Of a DNA stretch of 55,180 nt, positions 18,464 through 19,745 are shown piece by piece. The DNA lies in contig CACOIM010000005.1 in assembly GCA_902627325.1 (NCBI GenBank), forward strand, positions 1 through 55,180, written 5' to 3'. The notes beneath the pieces are model-generated. The model worked only from the letters and a program-made list of their open reading frames with translations. It was not told the DNA's origin and ran no database searches. Each line of letters starts with the position of its first letter. The stretch's first letter is position 1. This DNA comes from an uncultured Prochlorococcus sp. (GTDB lineage: Bacteria > Cyanobacteriota > Cyanobacteriia > PCC-6307 > Cyanobiaceae). Position numbers and translations under genes: made by a program.

Positions 18464-19048
18464 TTAATTTAAACCTAATTCTTTTTTTAGGAAAGGAGCA
18501 AGCTCTCTGGCAGCTTTCCCTCTGCTTCCTAATTTTGATAATTGAGAATCATTTAACTCTCCGTATACTCTATTAGCTTCTTTAACCCAAAAAATTGATT
18601 CAAATTCTCCGTCAGGATATTTTGGCTTTTTAAGAATTTCTCCCCAACAAATTCCAGTAGATTCTTTAACTAATTCTCCATTTGGATCGCATAGGACCAT
18701 ACAGCTAATAAGTCTTGCACTCCTATATGGTGTATCTCCAAGTTCATTTAATAGCTTTTTTACTTTTTCAGAATTGTTTTTGGCATATCTTGCTGAAAAA
18801 ATACCTGGTTTGCCTTCTAAAAAGTCAACTTCTAATCCTGAGTCATCAGCCAAAGCCCATGAGTTTGTCTTTATAGAAGCTGCTTTTGCTTTTAGTAATG
18901 CATTCTCCAAATATGTTTTGCCTGTCTCTTCTACATTTAGAGAATCAGGCTGTTTTATTACCTCTAAATTTAAAACATTAAGCATTTCAGAAATTTCTGA
19001 AACTTTTTTTAAATTGCCGCTAGCAATAATTAATCTTGTTTTACTCAA
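18464..19048 (-). CDS. rdgB: Non-canonical purine NTP pyrophosphatase (RdgB/Ham1)
   Basis: 'TRLIIASGNLKKVSEI', 'WALADDSGLEVDFLEGKPGIFSARYA'. The supplied ORF extends to 19114, but homology starts near a TTG at 19048. Confidence 0.9.
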   Translation of the reverse strand: MSKTRLIIASGNLKKVSEISEMLNVLNLEVIKQPDSLNVEETGKTYLENALLKAKAASIKTNSWALADDSGLEVDFLEGKPGIFSARYAKNNSEKVKKLLNELGDTPYRSARLISCMVLCDPNGELVKESTGICWGEILKKPKYPDGEFESIFWVKEANRVYGELNDSQLSKLGSRGKAARELAPFLKKELGLN

Positions 19049-19127
19049 CTTGCGAAAATAAATATTATTTATCTTAACTGAAAGATTGATACAGAGACAG
19101 GAAAGGTTGAACATTCCACACCTGAGC

Positions 19128-19150
19128 AGACAGGGCCTGTCTCGTACGAG
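19128..19150. promoter_or_regulatory. Two adjacent perfect palindromes in the rdgB-csoS1 intergenic region
   Basis: AGACAGG-G-CCTGTCT (19128-19142) and CTCGTACGAG (19141-19150) in otherwise AT-rich DNA. Confidence 0.6.
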
Positions 19151-19370
19151 GTTAAGTTAATGTAAATTTTTTATTAACACAACTGTATGTTTTGATGCTC
19201 TAACCAAATATTGTTAAGGAGAAATTTATCAATTATATCAAGGGTGATAAGCTGAACTTATATATCATAGTAAAAACATTAATCGAATTTTAGGTAAAAA
19301 TGCTTGACTTTTAAGGCCTCAATAGATCATTCTTCGATATGAACATTCCACATTTAGTAATTAGTAGGCA

Positions 19371-19682
19371 ATGGCTACAGAAACAATGGGTATCGCTCTC
19401 GGCATGATCGAGACACGCGGACTTGTACCTGCAATCGAAGCAGCAGACGCAATGACAAAGGCAGCAGAAGTTCGCCTTATTGGTCGTGAATTTGTTGGAG
19501 GCGGTTATGTAACCGTTTTAGTTAGAGGAGAAACTGGAGCAGTAAACGCAGCAGTTAGAGCTGGTGCTGATGCTTGTGAAAGAGTTGGTGATGGCCTAGT
19601 AGCTGCTCACATTATTGCTCGTCCTCATAGAGAAGTAGAACCTGCTTTAGGTAATGGAAATTTCCTTGGACAAAAGGACTAA
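19371..19682 (+). CDS. csoS1: Carboxysome major shell protein CsoS1 (BMC domain)
   Basis: ORF 103 aa; 'GMIETRGLVPAIEAADAMTKAAEVRLIGREFVGGGYVTVLVRGETGAV'. Confidence 0.97.
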   Translation: MATETMGIALGMIETRGLVPAIEAADAMTKAAEVRLIGREFVGGGYVTVLVRGETGAVNAAVRAGADACERVGDGLVAAHIIARPHREVEPALGNGNFLGQKD

Positions 19683-19745
19683 TTTTAGATAATTAAAAGC
19701 AAAAGGCTTTTGAACAATTTCCCTATAAAAACCTAAGGAGTATCT

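Follow-up and report, generated by a model that had tools for sequence, protein, structure and literature searches.

A conserved structured RNA element between rdgB and csoS1 in Prochlorococcus and its relatives, predicted to pair with the start of the csoS1 mRNA

We found that the spacer separating csoS1, on the plus strand with its ATG at 19371, from the minus-strand gene rdgB/ham1 holds an element of ~60 nt that comparison across the family leads us to regard, with little room for doubt, as a conserved structured RNA on the minus strand. The start of the csoS1 mRNA is very probably paired functionally by this RNA, and the element as a whole is probably a regulatory RNA that sets csoS1 expression by this base-pairing. 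Given that the antisense match to the predicted csoS1 mRNA start is exact, such an RNA would probably tune the making of the CO2-fixing machinery. Positions (Table 1) are those of the window, by which we mean the whole 55,180-nt stretch of DNA from an uncultured Prochlorococcus sp. that was analysed.

Table 1. Features of the rdgB-csoS1 region, in window positions
Feature	Position	Strand	Remarks
rdgB/ham1 ORF	18464..19114	-	called from first ATG
Conserved structured RNA element	19090..19147	-	core of predicted RNA, 5′ end 19147; CM matches and covariation
P1 closing stem, 3′ arm CCUGUCUC	19090..19101	-	one bulged base, GUA
Predicted pairing segment (seed) UGUGGAAUGUUC	19109..19120	-	exact complement of csoS1 leader
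Inner hairpin P2, CCUG...CAGG	19121..19134	-	covaries family-wide
Palindrome 1, AGACAGG-G-CCTGTCT	19128-19142
P1 closing stem, 5′ arm UACGAGACAGG	19136..19146	-
Palindrome 2, CTCGTACGAG	19141-19150
Predicted -10 box TAACTT of the minus-strand RNA	19154..19159	-	TANNNT pattern
Predicted -35 box TTGTGT of the minus-strand RNA	19177..19182	-	17-nt spacer
Predicted csoS1 promoter TTGACT-N18-CATTCT	19304..19333	+	pattern conserved family-wide
Predicted target GAACATTCCACA, csoS1 mRNA 5′ end	19341..19352	+	18 nt before start codon; start inferred from promoter pattern
csoS1, carboxysome shell gene	19371..19682	+	first gene before rbcL/rbcS

Conservation and fold of the minus-strand element

Covariance models were used to search 400 family genomes for the element. 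Model R1 (minus strand) found it in 240 of them and model R2 (diverse members) in 272, the latter covering 45 of the 59 sampled genera, with almost always one copy per genome; at the named loci it lay on the minus strand at a near-constant distance of ~215 nt upstream of the csoS1 ATG. Extra matches in some genomes turned out to be partial and to fall on the antisense strand of the csoS1 leader itself (e.g., L272, 1469-1499), and no phage or viral copy of the element was found. Within the genus, the rdgB-csoS1 spacer was ~81-84% identical in most genomes, some of the misses being contigs that end inside or beside the region. BLAST matches of the neighbouring segment 19202-19248 in other genomes were set aside as chance matches inside coding sequence.

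The two stems, P1 and P2, were assessed on a structure-blind alignment of 44 diverse sequences. Their pairs were retained in 96.6% of cells and two-sided changes occurred at 9 of 13 pairs, amounting to 45 cells compared with 9.8 in shuffles, counts which, like the seed-target statistics given below, take no account of shared ancestry. When partners were slid out of register, pairing fell to 56% or less, and the CM-based alignment agreed (13 of 15 pairs). P1 was swapped almost whole in several lineages (GGCGTCAG/CTGACGCC, GCAGCGGT/ACCGCTGC, GAAACGGG/CCCGTTTC), with a further replacement by GCGTGC/GCACGC, while its UAC/GUA extension occurred mainly in the HL-type genus. As to strand, G-U pairs were compatible with a minus-strand RNA in 35 cells and with a plus-strand RNA in 5, and RNAalifold recovered P1 on the minus strand (-11.6 kcal/mol) but no fold of similar strength on the plus strand (-1.7). 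Folded by itself, the window sequence had an unremarkable energy and no significant z-score, so that the case for RNA structure rests on comparison; by that comparison, the element has the conserved secondary structure looked for in bacterial base-pairing regulatory RNAs.

The first-pass annotation had singled out CCTGAGCAGACAGGGCCTGTCTCGTACGAGG, at 19121-19151, as a GC-rich island holding two abutting perfect palindromes. The segment is there and is non-coding, with a GC content of 65% against 26% just downstream and 32% in the window, and both palindromes are real, though they share 2 nt instead of abutting. That such symmetry would be unlikely by chance was not borne out. The window contained 22 palindromes with 7-bp arms where a first-order Markov model predicts 17 (sd 3.5), and although only one of these was GC-rich (expected 0.28), at least one such palindrome arose in 16 of 60 simulations, leaving the palindromes weak by symmetry alone. 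The base following CGTACG varies within the genus, the outer part of palindrome 2 being unconserved, and palindrome 1 is broken by a T-to-C change (CCTGCCT for CCTGTCT) in about half of the genus strains, so neither palindrome is the conserved object; in the comparison with family loci, both were gone outside the genus. It is the larger element at 19090-19147 whose conservation far exceeds chance; the interval 19121-19151 clips it, and the palindromes are its by-product. The absence of the palindromes from sister strains had been proposed as grounds for rejection: they do vary within the genus and are absent outside it, yet the RNA is conserved, and this test would have discarded the site.

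Three roles had been offered for the segment. Of these, part of an unannotated small RNA is the one that agrees with our results, albeit one of the minus strand that reaches 19090 and whose fold differs from the visible palindromes. An operator for a dimeric regulator does not fit palindromes that are unconserved and stems whose two sides both change, as is usual for RNA stems, and a structured 5′ leader of csoS1 is disfavoured by the G-U pattern and RNAalifold, which point to the minus strand, and by a csoS1 promoter that lies downstream of the element. Separately, we noted that an inverted repeat ahead of the csoS1 -35 box, at ~19245-19268, is conserved. It is degenerate in the window and clean in L006 and L003 (TGATAAGTTTAACTTATCA); it looks like a LysR-type (RbcR/CbbR) operator and would be a better operator candidate than the reported palindromes.

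Complementarity to the csoS1 mRNA start

The seed is exposed between P2 and the 3′ arm of P1, and UGUGGAAUGUUC is the exact complement, over 12 nt, of GAACATTCCACA. The latter should be the extreme 5′ end of the csoS1 mRNA, as judged from a promoter pattern (TTGAC, 17-18 nt, CATTGT-like) that is conserved upstream of csoS1 across the family. Among 63 distinct non-HL pairs of seed and leader, complementarity held in 62-63 at each of positions 1-9 and in 9 at position 0, a sharp onset which places its beginning where the csoS1 mRNA should begin. Variation at position 11 was of the kind expected of pairing: leader C occurred with element C in 37 cases, leader T with element C (a G-U pair) in 11 and leader T with element T in 10, while the mismatched combination of leader C with element T was never seen (Fisher 7e-6). 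Duplexes formed within the same genome also outperformed swapped ones, none of 5000 permutations being as strong. The core seed is too conserved to yield many co-changes, but one Synechococcus group (L097, G376, G388) carries GAACATCCC in both seed and leader. In short, the element exposes a conserved segment that is complementary to the start region of an mRNA, as is looked for in a base-pairing RNA.

The match persists where the two sites are far apart. In the Cyanobium-like genera g36 and g40 (including L174 and L175), sbtA, a sodium-dependent bicarbonate-transporter gene that we identified by eye from sequence, lies between the element and csoS1; at these loci the element stays beside rdgB and away from csoS1, and the csoS1 leader keeps GAACATTCCACCCC. 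Cyanobium-like leaders also show AGGAG within a few bases after the predicted hybrid. In the complete genomes G160 and G107, the element and the leader are the only two GAACATTCCAY sites, and such sites elsewhere in complete genomes are mostly inside genes. In several HL genomes we observed a third conserved copy, TTGAACATTCCACA, in the long 5′ leader of an rpoD1/sigA-like gene, ~300 nt before its ATG (L252, L253, L254 and L270, in G042, G041 and G022; G015 with one mismatch), which could be a second target of the RNA.

We also compared leaders between genomes with and without the element. The leader core was intact in 83 of 85 genomes with the element versus 5 of 15 in which none was detected (Fisher 1e-8). 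The core is mismatched in L129 and L177. Those with an altered core and no element found were G122, G123, G128, G130, G133, G135, G143, G146, G149 and L093; those with an intact core despite no element found were G106, G116, G127, G147 and L156 (the last searched at its locus only), some of which may hold an undetected element. Where no element was detected, we looked up to 1.5 kb from csoS1 and ahead of rdgB for a changed element with a matching changed seed; the only find was in G121, whose P1 stem is wholly replaced. At the usual place in G127 (L278, 2018-2103) there is a weak match to the element that is without the seed, possibly a decaying copy, and the csoS1 leader there retains GAACATTCC.

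The mechanism that we propose is as follows. The 5′ end of the RNA would fold so that P1 encloses the small hairpin P2 and the exposed segment UGUGGAAUGUUC, which would pair with the csoS1 mRNA over its first 12-16 nt (5′-GAACAUUCCA...). The duplex would cover ~+1 to +14 and stop ~15-19 nt short of the AUG, bordering the ribosome-loading region, and in this way pairing would set the expression of csoS1, the first gene of the carboxysome-RuBisCO operon. Sequence comparison supports the minus-strand fold, the promoter-like signal and the upkeep of complementarity; we infer the existence of a discrete RNA, its pairing in the cell and the outcome. We judge lower translation initiation to be the most likely outcome, and favour it somewhat; 5′-end protection from RNase E or destabilization of the mRNA would come next.

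Extent of the transcript and competing explanations

A TANNNT motif lies 11-16 nt ahead of P1 in 84 of 86 sequences, and many of these have a TTG-type -35 element ~17 nt further upstream (TTGTGT-N17-TAACTT in the window). The position of this promoter-like signal suggests that the predicted RNA starts at the base of P1, near 19147. As for its other end, no terminator-like site was found in 18600-19700, nor a U-run after P1 in the window or its relatives. An intrinsic terminator of its own is typical of a stand-alone sRNA, if not strictly defining, and since the element is followed by none we do not claim that label. In 85 of 86 loci the element is followed by rdgB on the same strand, as an rdgB 5′ leader element would require, the gene beginning 46-443 nt after the element (~690 nt in G160). 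With no terminator seen between the two, the RNA may either stand alone as an sRNA or form the 5′ portion of the rdgB/ham1 transcript. The true start of rdgB is probably closer to 19050, so that the 5′ stretch of the called ORF that overlaps the element is unlikely to be coding. The interval between the element and rdgB in G160 contains a strong inverted repeat (L174, 831-889); matches of this hairpin to animal microRNA families were sub-threshold and were dismissed as chance.

These observations raise the question of whether the element serves rdgB only, as a cis-acting structured 5′ leader involved in stability or in protein or ligand binding, with the match to the csoS1 leader being functionless. 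The position of rdgB just described, directly downstream on the same strand, the lack of a terminator before it and the fact that the element remains with rdgB where sbtA intervenes before csoS1 would all suit such a role. It does not account for an exact match to the predicted csoS1 mRNA start with a sharp boundary and pairing-type variation, for the co-change of seed and leader, or for decay of the target where the element is not found, and the spacing between element and rdgB varies from 46 to ~690 nt; we consider it unlikely. The lasting linkage to rdgB and the same seed-leader complementarity could also mean that the action runs in reverse, the csoS1 mRNA start acting on the rdgB leader so that carboxysome transcription regulates rdgB or titrates the RNA. 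Here the geometry is unfavourable, as the seed is at least 40 nt from the rdgB start whereas the target is near the csoS1 start codon, and we give this possibility still less weight.

The operator idea might also be moved from the palindromes to GAACATTCC, as a DNA site bound by a regulator dimer at both divergent promoters: GAACATTC has GAA-NN-TTC symmetry and is present at both. Against this, the flanking stems covary as RNA, conservation runs past the symmetric part in the pairing register and tolerates G-U, and both copies are downstream of the predicted starts, which makes such an operator very improbable. Least credible of all, to the point of being almost dismissed, is a plus-strand RNA or csoS1 leader element; the stems of the window sequence could form on either strand, but the G-U pattern (35 to 5) favours the minus strand, the plus strand does not keep the consensus fold and the promoter signals face the other way. 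We return, then, to a minus-strand RNA that pairs with the csoS1 mRNA. A more specific version of it, which we put forward tentatively, is that the ham1 transcript regulates the csoS1-rbcLS mRNA through its 5′ part, forming a lineage-wide RNA link between ham1/rdgB and the alpha-carboxysome operon.

Implications and comparison with known systems

Much of the carbon fixation in the ocean is due to Prochlorococcus and Synechococcus, which have few regulatory proteins, and to our knowledge little has been established about how they set RuBisCO and carboxysome levels; we likewise know of no carboxysome role for ham1. If our reading is true, an antisense RNA aimed at the start of the csoS1-rbcLS message would be a direct control point in 45 of 59 sampled genera. 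If it also holds that the ham1 transcript is the regulator, this would be a main post-transcriptional control of RuBisCO and carboxysome supply in Prochlorococcus, marine Synechococcus and related freshwater forms, and the ham1-csoS1 RNA link would explain the consistent presence of ham1 beside cyanobacterial cso loci. Ham1 has been reported to accompany the cso locus, with no explanation given (PMC4207490), and has been listed there as a 'protein with unknown function' (PMC12918739); the RNA link would supply the first functional reason for this linkage.

The region has very probably been noticed before. A 336-nt region of MIT9313 and WH8102, cluster 87 in Table 1 of Axmann et al. (2005; PMC1242208), was scored as structured and is very probably the same rdgB-csoS1 spacer; the table explains it as 'upstream of the rbcLS cluster containing conserved promoter' and gives no structure, strand or target, and those authors did not take it to a test. 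An sRNA at this spacer is not listed by Steglich et al. (2008; PMC2518516), but one may figure among the candidates of Lott et al. (2020; PMC7368042). A search of Rfam 15 (4227 families) with the window and eight diverse relatives gave no match above cut-off, including to Cyano-1 (RF01701) and Cyano-2 (RF01702), which resemble the element in being structured RNAs of marine cyanobacteria.

The closest parallels are Yfr1 and Yfr10, short structured base-pairing sRNAs of picocyanobacteria in which a conserved motif is exposed. Yfr10, too, acts on csoS1: it pulls down the csoS1 mRNA, which is reported as its target (Lambrecht et al., 2019; PMC6778093). Their motif, however, is ACUCCUCACAC, which was absent from the aligned elements, while that of the element is GGAAUGUUC; the locus differs as well, and unlike them the element has one dominant, co-varying target next door. 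RblR of the beta-cyanobacterium Synechocystis PCC 6803, an asRNA of rbcL (PMC5306279), is likewise an antisense RNA acting on RuBisCO expression, but in the present case a short seed on a separate folded RNA would address the csoS1 leader, and in alpha-cyanobacteria. Yfr28 of Prochlorococcus MED4 is also an sRNA that adjoins its main target and pairs with the 5′ UTR of that target, but it lies beside ftsZ and overlaps the ftsZ 5′ UTR in cis by 46 nt (PMC7368042), whereas the two pairing sites described here are separate, ~230 bp apart (or >1.5 kb). Set beside these systems, the element is best read as an undescribed base-pairing RNA.
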